Source: Actinomycetes bacterium (GTDB lineage Bacteria > Actinomycetota > Acidimicrobiia > Acidimicrobiales > Ilumatobacteraceae). From it: a stretch of 59,121 nucleotides of DNA. Below, in pieces: positions 49,399 through 59,121 of this stretch (position 1 is the first letter of the stretch; each line of letters opens with the position of its first letter). The notes under the pieces were generated by a model. The model saw only the letters and a list, made by a program, of their open reading frames with translations. It was not told where the DNA came from and searched no databases. A program made the position numbers and the translations under genes. The stretch lies in the NCBI GenBank assembly GCA_025359865.1, contig JANYDH010000161.1, positions 1-59,121 of the forward strand, given 5' to 3'.

Positions 49399-49716
49399 CT
49401 ACTGCTGGCGAGTCGTCCAGTAGTCCGGGCGGCGATGCTGGTGGAACACGGCGAGGACGATCACGATGTCACCCGCGACTTCGTAGCCCACCACCCAGGG
49501 AAATCCACCGACCAGCGTCTTCCTGTTGACTACCGCTCCGTCGTCGTCCACAGCAACCGGCGTGCCGGCGTGGGGCCCGCTGCTTATCCGCTTCAACGTC
49601 GCCTCGAAGGCCGCCGAGAACCGGTCGCCGAGTCCCACGTTCTGCTGCTCGTACCAGGCCTGGGCAGCGACGAACTCAGCCGCTGCAACCGGGTGGTACT
49701 CGACGCCGAAACTCAC
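49399..49716 (-). CDS. ParE/RelE-type toxin
   Basis: 105 residues from GTG at 49716, overlapping the antitoxin TGA. FGVEYHPVAAAEFVAAQAWYEQQNVGLGDRFSAAFEATLKRI and FPWVVGYEVAGDIVIVLAVFHQHRRPDYW are the ParE fold; ParE toxins poison gyrase, RelE relatives cut mRNA. A partial duplicate lies at 47030. Confidence 0.87.
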   Translation of the reverse strand: MSFGVEYHPVAAAEFVAAQAWYEQQNVGLGDRFSAAFEATLKRISSGPHAGTPVAVDDDGAVVNRKTLVGGFPWVVGYEVAGDIVIVLAVFHQHRRPDYWTTRQQ

Positions 49717-49961
49717 CGAGGGCTGCGGCTGGCAGCGACCTGCTCGAGCACCTCGCTCCAAGTCAAGGTCTTGGCTTCACCTGAGGCGATCTGCCGAGAG
49801 CGTCGAACCATCTCCTCGCCCCAGGCGAGGACAATCTCGGCAGGATCGTCCTCAGAGACGTCGTCATCGAGGCTGGCGAGCAGTTCGACCGCAAGTACGG
49901 CGCGTTCCTCAGTGGGAAGAGACAGGACTTCAGTCCGAAGGGCCGCAGACTTCGCGCTCAC
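49713..49961 (-). CDS. addiction-module antitoxin
   Basis: 82 residues. LRTEVLSLPTEERAVLAVELLASLDDDVSEDDPAEIVLAWGEEMVRRSRQIASGEAKTLTWSEV is the addiction-module component family (HigA/ParD-like partner of ParE-type toxins). First gene of the pair. Confidence 0.85.
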   Translation of the reverse strand: MSAKSAALRTEVLSLPTEERAVLAVELLASLDDDVSEDDPAEIVLAWGEEMVRRSRQIASGEAKTLTWSEVLEQVAASRSPR

Positions 49962-49970
49962 AGCCCCACA

Positions 49971-50757
49971 CTACTCCTGGCCGGCGCCCGGGCGTGGTGC
50001 GATCAGCGACGCGACGGCGGTCGCTAACGCCCTGTCGGTTTCGGTCACTCGTCCGCTGTAGTGCTTGGCGGCGATGCTCGGGTCATGGCCGGCTCGCATC
50101 GCGACCTGGGTGATGCTGAAGCCCATCTCCTGGCCGTAGGTCTCCATGAACTTGCGCAAGTAGTGGAAGTCGAGGTGGTCGAGGCCAATCCGCTTGCGCA
50201 TCCGCCCGAAGTACTGCGACACGGCGTCAGGCTTCCACGGCACCGAACCATCGGCGGAATCGGTGAAGATGTACGGATCGTCGATCAAATCGACTTTGGC
50301 GACCCGGGCGCGCTTCTCGACGTCGTTGATCTGTGCCCGCAGGATCGCTGCGGTCAAGTCGTCGATCGCGAGAATGCGCACGCGACGGTTCTTCGTCGGG
50401 ATCTCGCCGAGCGGCTGGTTCGCCAGGTTGACGATCGAGGCCGACACTCGGATCAGGCTGCGCTCGAAGTCGACGTCGCGCCGCCGCCGCAGCGCGCACA
50501 GTTCAGCGCGTCGCAACCCGGTCGTTGCAGCGACGAGGATCGCCCGCGCCATCTCGGGTCGCTTGCCCCGCTCGGCTTCCTCGATCAGCGCGCGCACCTC
50601 CTCGGGCGTCGGCACCACCGGCTCGACGTTCGGAATCGACGGCGGATCGGCCCACTGCGCCGGGCTCGACGCTCGCCACCCCCAACGGCAGGCCTGCGTG
50701 AACATCGCCGAAAGGCAGGCGTGGATTTGGTAGACGCTGCGCGTCGAAATCCGGCAT
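49971..50757 (-). pseudogene. tyrosine integrase lacking its N-terminal domain
   Basis: About 260 residues in frame: ISTRSVYQIHACLSAMFTQACRWGW leads into the catalytic domain with GLRRAELCAL (Arg I), DFHYLRKFMETYG (His-x-x-Arg), MRAGHDPSIAAKHYSG (His and nucleophile Tyr). All catalytic residues are present. The frame meets a TGA at 50757 just where the core-binding domain should continue, 19 bp from the tRNA-like repeat at 50776. The N-terminal 100 or so residues have been lost, or start is at the internal ATG at 50705. Confidence 0.8.
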
Positions 50758-50775: not shown

Positions 50776-50825
50776 GTGGGGCGGGTGGGTATCGAACCCA
50801 CGACCAAGGGACTATGAGTCGGCGT
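50776..50825 (-). repeat. tRNA 3'-half fragment, copy A (att-like)
   Basis: The complement reads as the last 46 nt or so of a tRNA with CAT in the anticodon position: anticodon-loop remnant, variable loop, T-arm GTGGG-TTCGATA-CCCAC and acceptor strand CCGCCCC. The 5' half is missing. 49 of 50 positions equal copy B. Such 3' ends are the attachment sites of tRNA-targeting integrases. Similarity continues to about 50941. Confidence 0.8.
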
Positions 50826-51017
50826 CGCTATGTCCGAGTGGTGCCGTGCAGTGTCGTTCACCAGTGCGCTGTTCGATCGTCGATCCCGATGCTGTTGCCC
50901 CGTGGTGCCGTGCGCCGACGAATTTGTTGGATGAAATGTTGTATCGGCGGAGACGACGGCTCTCGCCCGAGGCGACCGCAACGGAGCCTCCACGGCGCGC
51001 CGTAGTACATTGCTCTC

Positions 51018-51248
51018 ATGACTTTCTCGCGGATCACCGTGGATGCGACACGCATGGGTGGTGTGCCGTGTGTGCGCGACCTTCGGTTCCCGGTCGCATC
51101 GGTCGTGGCGATGATCGCCGACGGGATGACCGTGGATGAGATCCTGGCGGAGCACCCCGATCTCGAGGCGGACGACGTTGCCGAGAGCCTTCGCTACGCA
51201 GCGCTGGCCCTTCAGGAGCGGGAGCTCCCGCTGCGCCAACCGGCGTGA
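51018..51248 (+). CDS. DUF433 antitoxin
   Basis: 76 residues. DATRMGGVPCVRDLRFPVASVVAMIADGMTVDEILAEHPDLEADDVAESLRYAA is the DUF433 HTH-like domain (VapB45-like) that serves as antitoxin to PIN-like DUF5615 toxins. ATGs and stop overlap the toxin gene (GTGA). Confidence 0.88.
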   Translation: MTFSRITVDATRMGGVPCVRDLRFPVASVVAMIADGMTVDEILAEHPDLEADDVAESLRYAALALQERELPLRQPA

Positions 51249-51616
51249 GGTTCTTGCTCGACCAGAACCAGTCGCCTCGGCTGGTAGGGCTCCTCGAGGC
51301 GTCCGGTCACGACGTTGCGCATGTGCGCGATGTCGGTCTGGCAACCGCACCGGACGAAATCGTCGTGGAATTCGCGGTCGAGTCGAGCCGCGTCCTCGTC
51401 TCCAGCGATACCGACTTCGGCGAGCTACTCGCCCGGTCGAATGCCTCCTCACCGTCAATACTGTTGTTTCGTCGGCAAGGTCAGCGTCGAGCGCCTGAGG
51501 TCGCGGCGTTGTTGCTCGCAAACCTTCCGGCGATCGAGGGTGACCTGCTCGCCGGCGCGGTCGTCGTGTTCGACGACGACCGGATCAGAATCCGCAGCCT
51601 GCCCCTCAATCCCTGA
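51245..51616 (+). CDS. DUF5615 PIN-like toxin
   Basis: 123 residues. FLLDQNQSPRLVGLLEASGHDVAHVRDVGLATAPDEIVVEFA and LVSSDTDFGELLARS carry the Asp residues of the Mut7-C/DUF5615 PIN-like nuclease fold. Encoded between two att-like tRNA fragments, 16 bp from copy B. Confidence 0.88.
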   Translation: MRFLLDQNQSPRLVGLLEASGHDVAHVRDVGLATAPDEIVVEFAVESSRVLVSSDTDFGELLARSNASSPSILLFRRQGQRRAPEVAALLLANLPAIEGDLLAGAVVVFDDDRIRIRSLPLNP

Positions 51617-51631
51617 CCTCATCACTCCGTC

Positions 51632-51681
51632 GTGGGGCGGGTGGGTATCGAACCCACGACCAAGGGATTATGAGTCGGCGT
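51632..51681 (-). repeat. tRNA 3'-half fragment, copy B (att-like)
   Basis: Identical to copy A but for one base, same orientation, 856 bp away. The similarity extends for about 165 bp to the TTTGTTGGATGGAATGTTGG block at 51778-51799. No complete tRNA of this type lies in the window. Confidence 0.8.
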
Positions 51682-52524
51682 ACCGGCGTCCATCTGATGC
51701 CAAGTAGTGCCGTCTACCAGCAGTTCGTCCGCCAATGAGTCCGGCTGGTGATGACCCGTGACGCCCTGTATCGGCGAGTTTGTTGGATGGAATGTTGGAT
51801 GGCCCGTCATACTTCCTGCGATGAGCGACACGAAGGTCTCCTCGTCCGAGTCGCCCCTGCGCCGCCGTAAACGCTGGTTCAGCCGTTCGTCCAGCCGCGA
51901 TCGCCGTCGATCCGGTCGCACGCGTGGTGATCCTCACCGTCGCTGAACTCGATGACGGCCGAGCTCGTCGAGGCGCTGCACCAGCACCTCCGCTGGCGTA
52001 GCGGACTCGATGGCCGCAACGCTTCGACATTCGAACTCTCAGACCGACACGGGTGCCGCCGGGCTCGAAGTCGACCCCGCAAAGACAAGCCAATTGGTGG
52101 AAGAACGGCGAGCTGGTTGCGCGGTGTCGGCGGTGAGTCTTGAACCCTTGCGCGTGCCGTATCGGGCGTTGTCGTCCTGTGTCAATCAGTCCAGCTCAGG
52201 CAAGCAATTTAGGGAGCGTACCCGCCCGCCTTGTTGCGACCAGTGTCGACTTCTGTTGGCCTTTCCGTGACCATTCTGTGACCACCATCCCAGGACCAAC
52301 GGCTCGAGCGGACGGCAGCGAGTGGACGACGAGCACTGGGTCGCAGCCCTTCCTAGGCATTGGGGACGAGTAGGGCAAGCACCGGGCGCTATCCAACACT
52401 GGAGGGTGTGCCACCAAGACAGCACAACGTGGTCAAGCGACCACTTTTTGCGATCTCACCCCCTCAAAAGGTGGTACGGTCGGAAGCGCCGGTGAACACT
52501 GGCAACTACCACGAAGGAGAAGTC
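51682..52524. other. gene-poor region upstream of the peptide operon
   Basis: No intact gene I can support; a 41-codon Arg-rich frame at 51821-51946 is unsupported. Before the operon, TTTTTGCGA and, 20-odd bases on, TACGGT form a weak promoter candidate, with ACCCCCTCAAAAGGTGGT able to fold as a small hairpin between them (about 52445-52490). Confidence 0.45.
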
Positions 52525-52683
52525 ATGCCGCTAGATCTGCAAGAACGACTGATCGATCAGCTGATCGACGATCTGAACGAGGGTAAGCCGATGGAAGTCA
52601 GCGGGATCGCGTTGGGCTATGAGCAGACAGCTCAGGCCCAGTACCCCGGAATCGCGCTGCCCGAGGAGTGGGAGACAAGCTGA
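52525..52683 (+). CDS. putative RiPP precursor peptide
   Basis: 52 residues with a strong ribosome-binding site (GAAGGAGA, five bases before the ATG at 52525). The N-terminal MPLDLQERLIDQLIDDLNEG is an amphipathic acidic helix like many RiPP leaders; the C-terminal part GYEQTAQAQYPGIALPEEWETS carries Tyr, Thr, Pro and Trp and may be the core. It opens an operon whose other genes encode peptide-modifying enzyme families. No Cys, so no thioether or disulfide chemistry. Role is inferred from position, size and neighbours. Confidence 0.65.
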   Translation: MPLDLQERLIDQLIDDLNEGKPMEVSGIALGYEQTAQAQYPGIALPEEWETS

Positions 52684-52747
52684 TCCCATGGGCGGGTGGG
52701 TCGCGCCGCGCTCTACCCGCCCAACCGGGCGTCAAAGCTTTGCGATC

Positions 52748-53824
52748 ATGGATTCGACAACGACCGATGGACAACGCGCCTCCAAGGCGCTGACGGCAGG
52801 ACCATATGGTGATGCGGCGGCATTGGTCGAGAACTCGTCGCGCTTCGACGCTGGGTTTGAGCGGCTCCTGCAGACCATTGCCCAGTGTTCCTTTGAGTCT
52901 CCGGCGCGCCATTGCCTGGCTGGCCACATCTACTTCTCGGGCTGCCTCGGGGAAGCCCTCAAACTCGTCACAGCCGGCCAGTCCGACGAACTCGGCCGGT
53001 TCGCTCTGCAGGTGCGCGATGAACTCGAACAAGCCACAGCCGTCAAGTCGGTACCCGTCGGGGGTTGGGCGGTACTGCAACCGCACGACGACATCCTCAC
53101 GAACACGATCGTTGAACGCGCTTGGAGATCGATCTCCGAGGACGACGGCAGCCATCCGGAGCTCAACCTGCTCACGCCCTCCAGTCATGAGCTGAATGCC
53201 CTCGAGCAATCGCGAGACGTCCTCATTCGTGTGCTTCCTGAACTCGCAACAGGAACTCTCAGCACTGTCCGTGGAGTTGCTGTGCTCGGTGGCAACGTGG
53301 AGTCTGCCTTCTTCTGGACTACACCGGGCCTCGTCTTCATCAATCGGACCCGACTCGTTGATCCCCTGCTGGCGGCTGATTCGCTCTTTCACGAATGTAC
53401 GCATCAAAAAATGCTGTTCATCCGCTTGGTTCGTCGGATCCTGCGACCCGGATATGACGATTGGAGTGGTTTAACGATCCCCATTCCGTGGGGCGCGCAA
53501 CAGTTCCGAACGTTCACAACCGGGCGAGCCATCGCCGCGGCGCACGTGTATCTGCACCTAACGGCCTTTCATCTTCGACTGCTGGAGCTGTGGGATGACC
53601 TCGCCCTGGAAGGTCGAGCAGATGTGGAGATCCGACTGGGTCAGCGTGCGGCTCGGAGCACCTACCTACTGGAGGCGTTAGCTTCGCCCTACTATCGCGG
53701 CGAACTTGGGGCCGACGGCGAAGAGTTCCTGCAATGGATGCTTGCGATCAACACTCAAATGCTGCACGCATCGGCTGGGAGTCGCCGAGTGGGCGAACTT
53801 GCGTCGCTGCTCACCGACGGCTGA
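52748..53824 (+). CDS. HExxH-motif putative peptide-modifying enzyme (aKG-HExxH type)
   Basis: 358 residues. H215-E-C-T-H219 with a downstream H266 in AAHVYLHLTAF gives the metal triad of the HExxH family, which is known from RiPP clusters and in studied members hydroxylates beta-carbons of peptide residues with 2-oxoglutarate. Other family-like parts are AVLGGNVESAFFWTTPGLVFINRTRL before the motif and LLEALASPYYRGELGADGEEFLQWM near the end. ATG at 52748 is chosen; 52688 is possible, but the resemblance begins after it. Located 64 bp after the peptide gene. Confidence 0.8.
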   Translation: MDSTTTDGQRASKALTAGPYGDAAALVENSSRFDAGFERLLQTIAQCSFESPARHCLAGHIYFSGCLGEALKLVTAGQSDELGRFALQVRDELEQATAVKSVPVGGWAVLQPHDDILTNTIVERAWRSISEDDGSHPELNLLTPSSHELNALEQSRDVLIRVLPELATGTLSTVRGVAVLGGNVESAFFWTTPGLVFINRTRLVDPLLAADSLFHECTHQKMLFIRLVRRILRPGYDDWSGLTIPIPWGAQQFRTFTTGRAIAAAHVYLHLTAFHLRLLELWDDLALEGRADVEIRLGQRAARSTYLLEALASPYYRGELGADGEEFLQWMLAINTQMLHASAGSRRVGELASLLTDG

Positions 53825-53825
53825 C

Positions 53826-55043
53826 ATGACCAACACCATGGTCTATCGTAAGAGTTCGGCTCGCCACCGGTGGCCGTTGCTTGTTGCCCTATTGATCTCG
53901 CTCGTGGGTGACGAGTTCGCAGTCATCGCAGCCACCTTCTCGCTCGCCGAGCAAAGAGCCGCCGGCCTGATGGTCGGCCTTATGCTCCTCCTCCAAATCG
54001 GTCCGCGCATACTTCTCGGCAGGCGACTTGGCAGGCTTGTTGATCGCGTTGGCGCTTGGCGGGTACTACGTGTTGTTCTGCCTCTTGAGGCACTCGCCGC
54101 GGGCGCGCTGGTGGCGGCTCCAGACAACGCAGCGGTTCTGCTGTCCGGCATCGCAGCGCTTGCCGTTCTCGGTACGGCCACGCAGCCCGCCGTACTGAAG
54201 CTAGGAAGTCAGATTGCGACGAATCCTCAGCAACTAGCTCGCACGAACGCGCTACTCGAGGCCGTTGCGAACGCCTCCCTGCTGCTCGGACCCGCGCTGG
54301 GCGGTGTCGTAATCGAGCTCGCTGGAAGGCGCGCCGTCTTCCTCATCGACGGGTTCAGTTTTCTCGTCGCGTTCGCGGTCCTAGGAGCGATGCTGCCACA
54401 GCGGGCCCCTTTGGCAAAGGCTCATCCCCTCGACCCGCAGCGACGCAGCGAAGCAAATCGAGTCTCCATTTACGCCTTTGCGCCGCTGAGGCTTGCCCTG
54501 CCTGCGGTGTACGTCGCGATCGCCGCATCGTCAGCGACGAGCGTTGCATTCGTCTTTCTCGTCGAGCAACACTTCGGAAAGGGTGAACTGACATACGGTC
54601 TGCTCGCTGCCGCATGGGGTCTTGGCGCGCTCGGTGCCGCGTCCTTGGTAGCGCGACGGGGCGCCGGAACGCTTGCCCCACAACGGGTGACACTCCTCGC
54701 GGCAGTCGTTCTTGGGCTGTCGTTAGCATTTGCCGGTCTCACTACGAACGTTGCGTTAGTCGGCGTGGTGTGGGTCCTCGGCGGTGCGGCGAACTCGCTA
54801 CACAACATCGCTATTCGGCAGCTCATTTTCGACAGCGTCCACGAGGAGCATCGAGGAGAGGCCTTCGGTCAGCTAGGTAGCCACTCCAACGTATTCGTAC
54901 TTGTCGGTTTCGTCTTAGGAAGCGGCGTCGCAGCCCGATGGCCAGCTTTGACCTACGTCGTCGGCGGTGCCGTCGGTTCCACGATTGCGTTGGTTCGCCT
55001 CGTGTCGGCTGTCCGCCACTCGCCTCAACTCAGGAAGGTATGA
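53826..55043 (+). CDS. MFS exporter of the RiPP-like operon
   Basis: 405 residues, 12 predicted spans. WPLLVALLISLVGDEFAVIAATFSLAEQ is the first span, followed by GRRLGRLVDRVGAWRVLRVVLPLEAL (A-motif loop). The layout is like enterobactin/macrolide-type exporters. It starts one base after the HExxH stop and ends one base before the methyltransferase ATG, so it belongs to the operon and probably exports the modified peptide. Confidence 0.88.
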   Translation: MTNTMVYRKSSARHRWPLLVALLISLVGDEFAVIAATFSLAEQRAAGLMVGLMLLLQIGPRILLGRRLGRLVDRVGAWRVLRVVLPLEALAAGALVAAPDNAAVLLSGIAALAVLGTATQPAVLKLGSQIATNPQQLARTNALLEAVANASLLLGPALGGVVIELAGRRAVFLIDGFSFLVAFAVLGAMLPQRAPLAKAHPLDPQRRSEANRVSIYAFAPLRLALPAVYVAIAASSATSVAFVFLVEQHFGKGELTYGLLAAAWGLGALGAASLVARRGAGTLAPQRVTLLAAVVLGLSLAFAGLTTNVALVGVVWVLGGAANSLHNIAIRQLIFDSVHEEHRGEAFGQLGSHSNVFVLVGFVLGSGVAARWPALTYVVGGAVGSTIALVRLVSAVRHSPQLRKV

Positions 55044-55044
55044 C

Positions 55045-55918
55045 ATGAACTCAACGATCCCGGACGCCAGACTTGAAGCATTCCCGCAATTCTCGAGGAT
55101 AGCCCATGAGTTGGGCGCTGAACTGGATTCGATCGGGTTCTATGAGGGTGTGTTTCGTGAGTACGTGGATGATCTCAACCGTGGCGTGACGTGGGACGTC
55201 GACCTCGTTGAGACACATCTACGAGACCATCTTCAGCCCGTCAATTCGCTCATCGTCGATCTAGGCGGTGGCTCCGGGCGCCTCTCTCGCGCTCGCGCAC
55301 CGCGGATGGAACGTCGCCTTGATCGACAACTCAACGGACCAACTTCAAGCGGCCAAAGCCGCGGCCGGCGAACAGAACATCAAGCTGCTGGTAGTCGAAG
55401 CCTTCAGTTTAACGTCTGAGTGTCCGCCGCCGATCGCGGGGGCGGCGGCAGCGTTCACCTCTGCCGGGACACTGAACTGCTTCGTCACTGAGGAAGCGGT
55501 CGCCCACTTCCTCCGGTGTGCCTCCACGATCGTCGAGAGCAACGGTCACCTCTTCCTCCCCGTGTTCGACGATCCCGCCCTGCAGCGATTCGAGCGAACG
55601 ATGACAGGACAGATCTACTCCCATGTCCTTCGCCGGGGCGAGGAGACATCGGTCATCTGGACGGCCCTTTGCTTTGACTTGGCCTCAGCGATCCTGCGCC
55701 AACCCTGCTACACATCTACGGTCGCTGGCGATCGGTCGAAGCACTACATGTGTGTGAGCGAGGACCGGATCTGGACCCCCTCGGCGTTGATTCCCCTGAT
55801 CGAGCGTTCACCCTGGACATTGAAGCTGCTTTCATCTGCTGAGGTCCAAGGCGGAGGAGCGAGTGGCTGGCCGTTCAGGATGATGGTGCTAGCCAATGAC
55901 GGCGGATCGTCCCAATGA
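55045..55918 (+). pseudogene. SAM methyltransferase with one-base frameshift
   Basis: Frame one (ATG 55045) reads to SLIVDLGGGSG, SAM motif I; after one extra base near 55278-55282 (TCCGGGCGCC) the second frame continues ASLALAHRGWNVALIDNSTDQLQAAKAAAGEQNI, which is motif I to II of the same enzyme, then AFTSAGTLNCFV and HLFLPVFDDPAL. Joined it would be about 290 residues. Its end overlaps the PqqD-like ATG. Either a sequencing indel, a decay event or a programmed +1 shift; the rest is intact in sequence. Confidence 0.75.
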
Positions 55919-56211
55919 AAGGGTCCGCTTTCACAAGTCACGCGGCGGGACTCGAGATCGTGCCCCTGGTCGATCGCTCCGGGGCGTTCGTGTTCAGGCC
56001 AAACCCTCCGGGGGCGGTACTGCTCGCCCCCTACTCCTTGCTTGTGCTCCTCTCCTGCGAGGGCCGAACTTTGGACGACGCGCTTGTCGGGCTCCAGACA
56101 AGAATTCACTCCGAGGATAGCGTCAAGGTGCAACGCGCGTTCTGGCTCGCGGTCGGACAACTCGTCGACGAGGGCCTGCTTGAGATTGCTCGAGTGAGAG
56201 ACGCCACATGA
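55915..56211 (+). CDS. PqqD-like RiPP recognition protein
   Basis: 98 residues. VFRPNPPGAVLLAPYSLLVLLSCEGRTLDDALVGLQTRI and LAVGQLVDEGLLEIARV match the winged-helix layout of PqqD-type RRE domains (N-terminal strands, the GxTxxD helix start, and the final GLL strand), which bind leader peptides and hand them to modifying enzymes. ATGA overlaps at both ends couple it to the methyltransferase and the cupin. Confidence 0.72.
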   Translation: MKGSAFTSHAAGLEIVPLVDRSGAFVFRPNPPGAVLLAPYSLLVLLSCEGRTLDDALVGLQTRIHSEDSVKVQRAFWLAVGQLVDEGLLEIARVRDAT

Positions 56212-57092
56212 GCGGCGACAACGACTTGCTCGCCTCTGCGATCTCGGGTGCCCTTCGAAGCTTCGCGTCAGATCAGGGCTGGGAAAGGACAACGCACTCG
56301 GCCCACGATGATCGACTCGGCGATCTCTTCGGGTTGAAGGAACTACGAGAACTGCTTGCGAACGTTCGCGTTCCGACCGGAATGTTCCGAGTGCTCCGAG
56401 ATTCGGTGCCGCTTCCGCACAAGCCATTCACCGTGCCCGTGCTGTCCGACGGGCGGCACGTTTTCGACGCTCTAGACCCAGTGGTCGCCCTCCAGGCCGT
56501 GAGCGGAGGCTCGTCGCTTCTCCTCGCTTCGCTACACGAGTACTGGCCACGAGTGAGAACGCTTTGTGCGACACTCTCGGAGCAGACTGCCCTCAGCTGC
56601 GAGGCTTTCGCTGTAGTCAGCGGAGCTGACTCGCCAGGCTTTGCACCGCATTTCGACCCGAACGATCAACTGGTCGTGCAGTGTGCAGGAACCAAGCACT
56701 GGAAGGTCTTCGCCCAGGCAGGAGAGGTGCCGACCACGGGCGACCCTGTCGAGCTTGGGGACAAAGGCCCCCCCATGTTCGAGCGGGATCTCACTGTTGG
56801 CGACGTTCTGTACCTTCCGCGGGGCTGCCCACATTTTGCGCAGAGTGGACACTCGACCTCCGTCCACGTGACGATCATTATGCGACGGTTGACTCACTCT
56901 ATGGTCCTCGCAGACGCGTGGGATGCTGCTCTCGAGCGGCGGCGCCTTGCCGATCAGTCGCTGCCGCCATTTTGGACAGACGACGCCTCGAGCGCAGCGG
57001 CCGCAGTTCAGGACCTATGCAGAGAACTCCTCAGTGCGTTACCCGACCTCATTCGGACACGCCTCGGGATGGACGCTGCCCCATTGAGATAG
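56208..57092 (+). CDS. JmjC/cupin-4 type 2-oxoglutarate oxygenase
   Basis: 294 residues. H148-F-D150 in FAPHFDPNDQLVVQCAGTKHW and H209 in LYLPRGCPHF give the Fe-binding triad of the ribosomal-oxygenase-like JmjC family (YcfD, MINA). LTVGDVLYLPRGCPHFAQSGHSTSVHVTIIM is very typical. Characterised relatives hydroxylate Arg or His in ribosomal proteins; here the operon suggests the peptide as substrate. Final gene of the operon. Confidence 0.82.
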   Translation: MSGDNDLLASAISGALRSFASDQGWERTTHSAHDDRLGDLFGLKELRELLANVRVPTGMFRVLRDSVPLPHKPFTVPVLSDGRHVFDALDPVVALQAVSGGSSLLLASLHEYWPRVRTLCATLSEQTALSCEAFAVVSGADSPGFAPHFDPNDQLVVQCAGTKHWKVFAQAGEVPTTGDPVELGDKGPPMFERDLTVGDVLYLPRGCPHFAQSGHSTSVHVTIIMRRLTHSMVLADAWDAALERRRLADQSLPPFWTDDASSAAAAVQDLCRELLSALPDLIRTRLGMDAAPLR

Positions 57093-57208: not shown

Positions 57209-59121
57209 TCACAACTCGATGCCTTGCGCTGCGCGCCCCGTGATCGCCTGCGACTCAATCGGGCGGCGAACGGAGGTGACATAGCCATCTACCTCGATGC
57301 GGCTTGCAACGTAGGCACTCTTGTCGAGGATTCTGGGATGCGGCCCGAGTCCGTCGGCGATTTCGAAGGCGGCTTGGTGTTGGGCGAGCCGACCGGCGGC
57401 GGCATCCCATTGCCGAGCGGCCGGGCCGGGTGCTGGTCGGTCGCCGATGGTGTTGACGATCGCGTCCGGGGGTTCGAGACGCGTGATCCTGGTCCGGACT
57501 CGAAGGTCGTGGTCCAGCCGCTCGTCGATCGCGTTAATCTTCGTTTCGAGGTCGGGGCGTCGGCGTAGATTCGCTTTCGCTTGCGCCTCCGCATGTCGGA
57601 GGCGTTCGAGTGTGCTGACCGCGATGCTGAGTTCGCTTTCAGCCGCCTTCACGGCTGTTGGTGTTCGTTCGATGTCGACTCGTGCCGCAGTGATCTCGGT
57701 GGCGTGTTTGCGGCGGTGGAGTGGTCGGTCGTAGTTCGCCAGGACGTCCTCGGCGAGGTGGAACGCAGCGGTTATCTGGGTGATCGTCTTCTCGGCGGTT
57801 GCTTTGGTGCGCTCGGCCTGCTGGCGTTCGGCGGGTAGCCGTTGGAGGGTGTTCTCGGCTTGTTCGATCGTGGCGGCGACGTCGTAGCGCTGCTCGAGGA
57901 GTTCGCGGAGTTGGCTGCCGTCGAGAAGGCCTGGGCGGTGAGGTTGCTCGTCGCGGAGTTCTGCTCGTCGTGCGTGGGCGGGGAGGTCGATCCAGTCGGT
58001 GGCGATGGATTGGGCGAAGACGTCGACGGCGGTTTGTTCGCCGTTGACGACCATGAACGCTTCGTTGATGCCGGTACCGCGGGTCATCGCGACGTAGAGG
58101 TTGCGGACGTCGGTGGGCTTCTCGTAGAAGCTGACCCCGCCTTGGACATTGCGCCCCTGAGCACCCATCACGGTCCGTGCGTAGGCAAGCTCGACATGCT
58201 CGGCCACATAGTTGGCGGGAAGCCGGACAGTGCCGTTGTTGCCGGTCGCGGTGAGTGATCCGTCGGGGTGGATGTGGCCGACGGTCCACACGGCACGGTT
58301 GCGGACCATTTCACCCCGATCGGTGGTGAGCCACCGGTCGTTCTGACGGGTCGCGATCTCATCACGCGCGTGAACCTGGTAGACGCCAACGGTGAGCTGC
58401 CGGCCGTCGGAGTCGATCTCGCCCGCGTTGATGCGGGTTTGTTGGCAGCGTTGGTTGAGTCGTTCGGTTGCTTCGTTGGTCGGCGCCATCAGCAGGCCCT
58501 TGTTGCCGGCCTGGCGGCGTTCCCACCACGCGGCGACGCTGGCCCGTTCCATCTGATTCAGGGTGCCGGAGTGAAGTCGGCCGTGCTGCTCATAGACCTC
58601 GGCGACAGTGACATCACCGCGCCGTAGGCGCAGGCTGGCTTCGCGTTCCCATTCGTTGTCGAAGCGATGAACGCGGTCAAGTTCGATCGCGCCGAAGGTG
58701 TCGACGAGGAGATCGAACATGCCGCCACGACCGACGGCTGAGAACTGCAACGGGTCCCCGACCAGCGCGATCCGCCAACCCTTCACGTCGGCGAGATCGG
58801 CGAGTTCGGCGAGCTTGGTGGTCGGCAACATCCCGGCTTCGTCGACGATGACAGTGGCGCCGACGGGGAGGTCGTATCGGTGATCGGGCGGGCGGTTGAG
58901 GCGGTGCTCGATGAGCAGCTTGTCGAGCGTGTCAGCGACCAGCCCAGTCTCGTCGGACAGCACTTCGGCCGCGGTCGCCGACGGTGCGACACCGAACACG
59001 GCGCGCCCATCGGCACGTAGTTGGGCGACAGCTGGTGCGAGGGCGGTGGTCTTGCCGGTTCCGGCCGGGCCGACGACAAGCACGATGTCGGCGGTGCCGG
59101 CGACAGCTGCCGCGCCTTCGG
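57209..59121 (-). CDS. MobF/TraA-type relaxase, helicase and C-terminal part (5' end outside window)
   Basis: At least 637 residues; the frame remains open to the window edge. VVGPAGTGKTTALAPAVAQLRADGRAV is the first Walker A of the RecD-like helicase, VIVDEAGMLPTTKLAELADLADVKGWRIALVGDPLQFSAVGRGGMF Walker B and motif III, VELAYARTVMGAQGRNVQGGV and NLYVAMTRGT motifs V and VI. A long Gln/Arg/Ala coiled coil follows (EQAENTLQRLPAERQQAERTKATAEK). The N-terminal TrwC-like relaxase domain should lie beyond the window. Nicking and unwinding of transferred DNA in conjugation. Confidence 0.9.
   Translation of the reverse strand, partial: EGAAAVAGTADIVLVVGPAGTGKTTALAPAVAQLRADGRAVFGVAPSATAAEVLSDETGLVADTLDKLLIEHRLNRPPDHRYDLPVGATVIVDEAGMLPTTKLAELADLADVKGWRIALVGDPLQFSAVGRGGMFDLLVDTFGAIELDRVHRFDNEWEREASLRLRRGDVTVAEVYEQHGRLHSGTLNQMERASVAAWWERRQAGNKGLLMAPTNEATERLNQRCQQTRINAGEIDSDGRQLTVGVYQVHARDEIATRQNDRWLTTDRGEMVRNRAVWTVGHIHPDGSLTATGNNGTVRLPANYVAEHVELAYARTVMGAQGRNVQGGVSFYEKPTDVRNLYVAMTRGTGINEAFMVVNGEQTAVDVFAQSIATDWIDLPAHARRAELRDEQPHRPGLLDGSQLRELLEQRYDVAATIEQAENTLQRLPAERQQAERTKATAEKTITQITAAFHLAEDVLANYDRPLHRRKHATEITAARVDIERTPTAVKAAESELSIAVSTLERLRHAEAQAKANLRRRPDLETKINAIDERLDHDLRVRTRITRLEPPDAIVNTIGDRPAPGPAARQWDAAAGRLAQHQAAFEIADGLGPHPRILDKSAYVASRIEVDGYVTSVRRPIESQAITGRAAQGIEL

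Follow-up and report, generated by a model that had tools for sequence, protein, structure and literature searches.

A candidate RiPP operon encoding two mechanistically distinct Fe/2-oxoglutarate-dependent oxygenases in an actinomycete of the Ilumatobacteraceae

The stretch of DNA analyzed here (hereafter the window) comprises 59,121 nucleotides from an actinomycete of the family Ilumatobacteraceae (assembly GCA_025359865.1, contig JANYDH010000161.1), being contig 194 in a draft genome of 219 contigs, and it carries a six-gene operon at positions 52525-57092. We read this operon, with a probability of roughly 0.7, as a pathway for a ribosomally synthesized and post-translationally modified peptide (RiPP), in which a 52-residue precursor would be hydroxylated around the motif AQAQYP by two mechanistically distinct Fe/2-oxoglutarate-dependent (Fe/2OG) enzymes, docked by a PqqD-like protein, and exported. 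An original prediction made from the nucleotide sequence had proposed a RiPP pathway with two different enzymes of this type, and predicted structure, profile searches, and related loci all support that proposal. The genes lie on the plus strand in the order peptide open reading frame (ORF), HExxH enzyme, major facilitator superfamily (MFS) exporter, methyltransferase, PqqD-like protein, and JmjC oxygenase (Table 1), and the operon has a G+C content of 0.613 against 0.634 for the window. The prediction had also described one-base gaps or ATGA overlaps throughout, which is borne out for the strand and for the last five genes: single-nucleotide gaps separate the HExxH gene from the MFS gene and the MFS gene from the methyltransferase gene, and ATGA overlaps join the methyltransferase gene to that of the PqqD-like protein and the latter to the JmjC gene. 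The exception is the gap between the peptide ORF and the HExxH gene, which spans 64 nucleotides and contains a stable hairpin.

Table 1. Coordinates of the operon features in the window
Feature	Coordinates	Strand	Basis
Precursor-like peptide, 52 residues, contains EQTAQAQYPGIALP	52525..52683	+	ORF after AAGGAG site
RNA hairpin in the gap between peptide and first enzyme	52689..52723	+	folding of 52680-52750; no T run by eye
alphaKG-HExxH-type enzyme, 358 residues, HECTH at residues 215-219	52748..53824	+	TIGR04267, predicted fold
MFS exporter, 405 residues	53826..55043	+	PF07690 (MFS_1), E 1.3e-29
Class I methyltransferase, N-terminal part, frame 1	55045..55419	+	aligns to Glutamicibacter methyltransferase
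Class I methyltransferase, C-terminal part, second frame	55265..55918	+	aligns to the same Glutamicibacter methyltransferase
PqqD-like candidate discrete RiPP recognition element, 98 residues	55915..56211	+	homologue in L173; profile-profile match
JmjC/cupin-4 Fe/2OG oxygenase, 294 residues	56208..57092	+	PF08007; HFD at 148, distal H at 209

Enzymes, exporter, and candidate recognition element

The first enzyme of the operon aligns with positions 5-176 of the 177 in TIGR04267 (E 5e-7), with a score of 29.8 bits that lies below the curated cut-off of 40, and its best PDB relative by sequence is ChlH (8s5f, E 0.0025). A structural model built with ten relatives (10 of the 12 HExxH loci from a genome-contig scan were in the alignment) reached a predicted local distance difference test score (pLDDT) of 76 and a predicted template modelling score of 0.80. 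With this model, Foldseek retrieved 8s5f at E 3e-7 and 22ob (SjiH-Ni) at E 2e-5, the five chains found under E 0.001 being four of 8s5f and one of 22ob, and VIA-align returned Z scores of 19.2 for 8s5f_A (262 residues, root-mean-square deviation 4.0) and 19.6 for 22ob, the next structure scoring 7.8. The predicted fold sustains the original call, and we firmly assign the protein, as modelled, to the alphaKG-HExxH enzymes with the ChlB-HExxH and SjiH fold; its activity would be that of an Fe/2OG-dependent peptide hydroxylase.

The second oxygenase had been predicted to be a JmjC/cupin protein, which was confirmed by its match to JmjC_2 (PF08007; E 1e-17, 64.3 bits against a cut-off of 22) and by an HxD...H iron-ligand motif that aligns with its relatives. 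The protein matches 58 of 396 genomes of the phylum at E 1e-10. In the PDB it is related to NO66, MINA, and the L16 arginine hydroxylase, and an enzyme of that kind might target a protein of the cell, for instance a ribosomal one, which would leave only the HExxH part of the operon concerned with the peptide. We regard this as very improbable, given that the JmjC gene overlaps that of the PqqD-like protein by ATGA within the same operon, that RiPP peptides are the substrates of the JmjC enzymes BipG and PbsQ (PMC12707348, PMC12257519), and that acidic, leader-like short ORFs with a DEDI-like start motif lie upstream of JmjC relatives at 14 of 39 places (among 40 fetched loci). The rule defining these acidic ORFs was picked after a first inspection of the JmjC neighbourhoods; it was satisfied by 5 of 899 other long open frames in the same loci, non-coding frames included, and 25 of the 39 places yielded no such ORF under it. 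S. clavuligerus also has an acidic short ORF of similar kind. The acidic ORFs support peptide substrates for this group of JmjC proteins.

Repeat peptides rich in Asp, or in Gly and Asp, and bearing a DEDI-like start motif were observed at L054, L057, L058, L060, L061, L062, L064, L067, L069, L071, L077, L078, L081, and L091, directly upstream of longer JmjC (PF08007) proteins; three of these peptides were searched against NCBIfam and gave no match over cut-off.

The assignment of the PqqD-like protein was less direct. It has no Pfam, NCBIfam, or PDB match by direct search, and PF05402 run over its own genome missed it at E 10, such that the PqqD call of the original prediction failed in the direct profile searches that left the HExxH call standing; it was supported only through a homologue and by profile-profile comparison. 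For the latter we aligned 26 PqqD domains from other genomes (4 of 30 loci having been dropped by a length filter). When the protein alone was compared with this alignment, hhalign matched 66 columns (probability 27, E 7e-4) with a score exceeding 200 of 200 shuffles, whereas HMMER with the same alignment gave only 3.7 bits. A homologue of 100 residues (pairwise E 3e-6) is encoded at L173, where its ORF ends inside the start of an HExxH ORF; this homologue has no PF05402 match. A two-sequence profile of the window and L173 proteins matched the PqqD profile at E 1.3e-5 (probability 81), scoring 31.3 where 100 column shuffles reached at most 17.9, and it also picked out, at E 3e-4, a protein of L178, another HExxH locus, that itself exceeds the PF05402 cut-off (25.1 against 23.4). 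The single-sequence model had a mean pLDDT of 44, too poor for a fold assignment; it shows three strands followed by two helices, where the winged helix of PqqD-like elements has three strands and three helices. A PDB profile search with three PqqD-like proteins returned only weak matches to other proteins (best E 0.33), and a search of the window protein against plasmids returned no match. On these sequence comparisons, the 98-residue protein is probably a discrete recognition element.

We also considered whether the PqqD-like protein could derive from the C-terminal domain found in long JmjC relatives, using 36 sequences that carry more than 60 residues there, and rejected this: the hhalign matches were short (14 and 17 columns, probabilities 8 and 13), and although the 14-column match had a score of 19.4 where 100 shuffles gave no more than 17.7, we do not claim it.

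The MFS call was borne out by PF07690 (Table 1). A methyltransferase gene is present as predicted, although not as a single open frame. The N-terminal part has no family match of its own in Pfam or NCBIfam, and the C-terminal part matches Methyltransf_25 at E 0.009, below cut-off. Both parts align to one methyltransferase of Glutamicibacter that has an intact open frame, at residues 4-72 (E 5e-5) and 127-263 (E 8e-10), respectively, and therefore represent a single gene whose reading frame shifts somewhere in 55265-55419, the interval in which both frames are open, and by eye close to its beginning. The frame change may be natural or an assembly error alike. Methylation of the peptide, also part of the original prediction, stays uncertain because the gene is split in the assembly.

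Candidate precursor and related loci

The 52-residue peptide contains no cysteine, and its only match within its own genome is itself; its N-terminal half is acidic and, by eye, helical. The motif AQAQYP is shared with a 40-residue ORF, ending AQAQYPR, on plasmid pGnpA106 of Glutamicibacter nicotianae (L006), and a shared run of this length (six residues) arose in 8 of 20000 shuffles of both peptides. A homologous short ORF beside related enzymes, which the prediction required, was found, thinly, at this single locus and by this 6-mer.

The hairpin after the peptide ORF, at about 52689-52723, prompts a different interpretation of the ORF. Folding of 52680-52750 gave -34.8 kcal/mol (z -3.0), a stability reached by 1 of 200 shuffles, and the hairpin is possibly an attenuator. 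A short ORF in front of such a structure, whose sole resembling peptide is alike in six residues only, could be spurious or a regulatory leader ORF, the enzymes having another substrate. We give this little credence: the ORF follows an AAGGAG ribosome-binding site, its third-position G+C of 0.717 lies within the range of the operon genes measured (0.66 to 0.742), and its position corresponds to that of the short ORFs in L006 and in L073, a locus described below.

Glutamine and proline, both known substrates of HExxH enzymes, make up half of AQAQYP, an observation that is suggestive and not a test.

Beyond the short ORF, L006 encodes a 212-residue protein, an HExxH enzyme (E 6e-11 against that of the window), a methyltransferase (E 0.008 and 1e-7 for the two window parts), and an MFS protein (E 5e-8). 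Four residues of the 212-residue protein (H, D, H, and R) are invariant between it and a protein encoded by G529, another genome of the phylum, and its kin. This HxD...HxR protein has no profile match, and a PDB search at E 1 was empty; from the motif, we take the L006 protein to be a putative Fe/2OG oxygenase. The two loci are therefore alike in the AQAQYP short ORF, in the three homologous genes, and in having a second putative Fe/2OG oxygenase; they are unlike in that the HxD...HxR family stands in place of JmjC, in that a PqqD-like gene was not detected at L006, and in gene order.

Genomes related to that of the window rarely carry a relative of the HExxH enzyme. Of 198 genomes in the order, the query matched only its own; of 396 in the phylum, it matched its own and G529; and five plasmid records had a match; viral contigs yielded no relative, whether searched with the single protein or with the alignment. 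The closest relative found, at L173, has 33% identity (E 6e-39), and within the genus of L173 that genome alone carries a match (1 of 35). Gene neighbourhoods were examined for 5 of the 12 loci from the genome-contig scan, in which one locus (L023) showed a weak JmjC match (E 0.007).

G529 represents another arrangement of such genes. DNA of G529 matches Streptomyces plasmids at up to 98%, and 39 of the 249 genomes in its family have an HExxH match at E 1e-5. Upstream of 17 of the 21 HExxH loci of this type (E 1e-30 or better) is an ORF of 51-59 residues bearing a LTRRLDHSVPDGDFAP-like motif, with two good copies in 15 of the 17 and one diverged copy in L168 and L176; L155, L171, L172, and L177 lack the motif. 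The HxD...HxR oxygenase is present at 16 of the 17 motif-bearing loci, L176 being without it. Four Streptomyces plasmid records match the L156 copy of the operon over 80-92%, and a plasmid of Streptomyces sp. NBC_01244 carries an annotated two-motif ORF of 52 residues, a hypothetical protein, and the oxygenase consecutively. The two-motif peptide of L073 has no NCBIfam model. This LTRRLDHSVPDGDFAP-precursor operon looks like an HExxH RiPP family, and the occurrence elsewhere of loci with an HExxH enzyme, a second oxygenase, and a precursor means that such a pairing is not unique to the window.

Further HExxH loci were noted in passing. The conserved operon, with a two-motif ORF, the HExxH enzyme, and a TPR-containing HxD...HxR oxygenase, was seen at L073:5514-8030, L156-L170, L176 (there without an oxygenase match), and on the Streptomyces plasmid L195:2520-5028. 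A Mycobacteroides chelonae plasmid (L007:4209-8017) has consecutive genes for a short ORF, a YcaO protein, an HExxH enzyme, and an MFS protein, and is likely another RiPP cluster. At L178:5889-12151 and L175:6158-12582 the HExxH gene stands, by eye, with radical-SAM-like genes and near an MFS-like gene, and L178 also has a discrete PqqD protein.

Several of these results weigh against the interpretation of the operon as a RiPP pathway with two oxygenases. The whole gene set was seen in this genome only, and the resemblance of the precursor is to one other peptide over six residues only. The 12 HExxH loci from the genome-contig scan had no relatives of the MFS or methyltransferase genes (tblastn, E 0.5). 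At L173 a PqqD-like gene is present, yet a precursor was not recognised there and matches to the JmjC, methyltransferase, and MFS genes are lacking; at L006 the second oxygenase belongs to another family without a profile match and no PqqD-like gene was detected. Finally, the methyltransferase gene is broken in this assembly.

Genomic setting and described pathways

The operon adjoins genes of mobile-element type. A phage-type integrase gene (49971-50705) lies next to an 89-nucleotide direct repeat, 82% identical, with copies at 50776-50864 and 51632-51720; the first part of the repeat resembles, by eye, a minus-strand tRNA gene at its 3' end, although ARAGORN calls no tRNA there, and the repeat may mark integration ends. 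Toxin-antitoxin-like pairs occur at 51018-51616 and 49399-49961 (DUF433 with DUF5615, and an antitoxin-like protein with a ParE-like toxin). On the other side, a TraI-like helicase (AAA_30) on the minus strand at 57209-59121, its frame open at the contig end and its TraI-associated domain slightly under cut-off, suggests a conjugative element beside the operon. A phage or defence origin of the operon itself was rejected: PADLOC matched none of five proteins scanned, and of four proteins scanned against PHROGs the JmjC protein alone matched, to two families of unknown function.

These neighbours (integrase, toxin-antitoxin-like pairs, and TraI-like helicase), together with the tRNA-end-like sequence duplicated at 50776 and 51632, the split methyltransferase, and the rarity of the HExxH gene among relatives in the order and phylum, would also fit a RiPP operon in decay, formerly functional and now losing genes, whose peptide is incompletely matured or not made. 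We consider decay unlikely, if the likeliest of the alternative readings, since the remaining genes are open and retain their ATGA or one-nucleotide coupling and since, with one draft genome to go by, the shift of frame may stem from faulty assembly.

The original prediction had stated that no described pathway was known with this set of genes, which is not supported for the two oxygenases and the exporter. As reported (PMC12707348, PMC12257519), the biphenomycin pathway of Streptomyces (bip/bpm) resembles the window operon in its short precursor, its MFS gene, and its JmjC and HExxH hydroxylases acting on one peptide, with BipG (JmjC) gamma-hydroxylating ornithine and BipH (HExxH) hydroxylating later. 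An HExxH enzyme, a JmjC enzyme, and an MFS protein in one RiPP cluster are thus already known; the gene set and the peptide here differ. As described there, bip has an MNIO with a partner, a B12 radical SAM enzyme, an arginase, a TldD-type protease, and an FRF core that the window operon lacks, and the Peribacillus version (pbs) is, unlike the window operon, without an HExxH gene. The window operon has instead a methyltransferase and the PqqD-like protein. No match to MNIO, radical SAM, or arginase families was obtained in the seven operon reading frames of 52525-57092, and the peptide has no FRF core motif, on which grounds membership in the biphenomycin group was rejected.

Three other described systems share single elements with the window operon. 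The pfl/pos clusters (PMC12636437) have alphaKG-HExxH enzymes that act on glutamine in a RiPP precursor, and differ in an MNIO-nitroreductase fusion partner, a nitrile-hydratase-like leader, and a C-terminal ARMD. The nitrilobacillin cluster (pes; PMC13060819) has the alphaKG-HExxH enzyme PesO, which hydroxylates proline, earlier HExxH substrates being histidine, aspartate, phenylalanine, and glutamine; it differs in its MNIO, asparagine-synthetase-like nitrile synthetase, and M16 peptidases. In the third, PF08007 JmjC oxygenases are fused to recognition domains, and their bacterial homologues have RiPP-like surroundings (PMC12710340); in the window, by contrast, the candidate recognition domain has a gene to itself, and the JmjC protein is short. 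Searches of the open PubMed Central literature listed no published pathway that combines HExxH, JmjC, methyltransferase, and PqqD-like genes, and a search for SjiH returned four papers with unrelated titles.

The pfl/pos enzymes bear on a further reading of the HExxH protein. PflC and PosC, which belong to its family, beta-hydroxylate glutamine and cut the backbone at the alanine of the C-terminal ARMD (PMC12636437). The candidate core here has an alanine after glutamine (AQAQ), and no operon protein matched a protease family in Pfam and NCBIfam profile scans, an absence that would be explained if the HExxH enzyme cut the peptide backbone oxidatively, releasing or amidating the product. The peptide has no ARMD motif, and we consider such cleavage improbable. 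The chemistry of an HExxH oxygenase in a given cluster is described as at present unpredictable (PMC13060819).

Proposed pathway and significance

In the two-oxygenase RiPP pathway that we favour, the leader would be the acidic N-terminal half of the peptide, and the core would be its C-terminal half around EQTAQAQYPGIALP. The PqqD-like protein would bind the leader and present the peptide to the HExxH and JmjC enzymes, of which the former would beta-hydroxylate one or more core residues, most likely glutamine and/or proline in AQAQYP, and the latter, mechanistically unrelated, would hydroxylate residues of another kind. The class I methyltransferase, where encoded by an intact gene, would then methylate the product, the MFS protein would export it, and the leader would be removed by a protease encoded outside the operon.

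More broadly, the combination of an HExxH enzyme with an unrelated second Fe/2OG oxygenase could be a recurring RiPP design of Actinomycetota that proceeds without MNIO, radical SAM, or cysteine chemistry, a generalization for which we find the case evenly balanced. It would exist in at least three versions: the first may be the HExxH and JmjC enzymes with the AQAQYP peptide in the window, the second may be the HExxH and HxD...HxR enzymes with the AQAQYP peptide in Glutamicibacter, and the third may be the HExxH and HxD...HxR enzymes with the duplicated LTRRLDHSVPDGDFAP precursor of Streptomyces plasmids and their kin. If this design is real, its peptides would be hydroxylated at two kinds of side chain, and those of the first two versions would then be methylated. 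The duplicated-motif precursors form a conserved family, and experiments on it may prove simpler than on the operon in the window; AQAQYP, common to two loci, points to the residues of interest. With a cysteine-free peptide, two Fe/2OG enzymes, and a candidate docking protein, the window operon would offer a compact system for studying how residues are divided between oxygenases.

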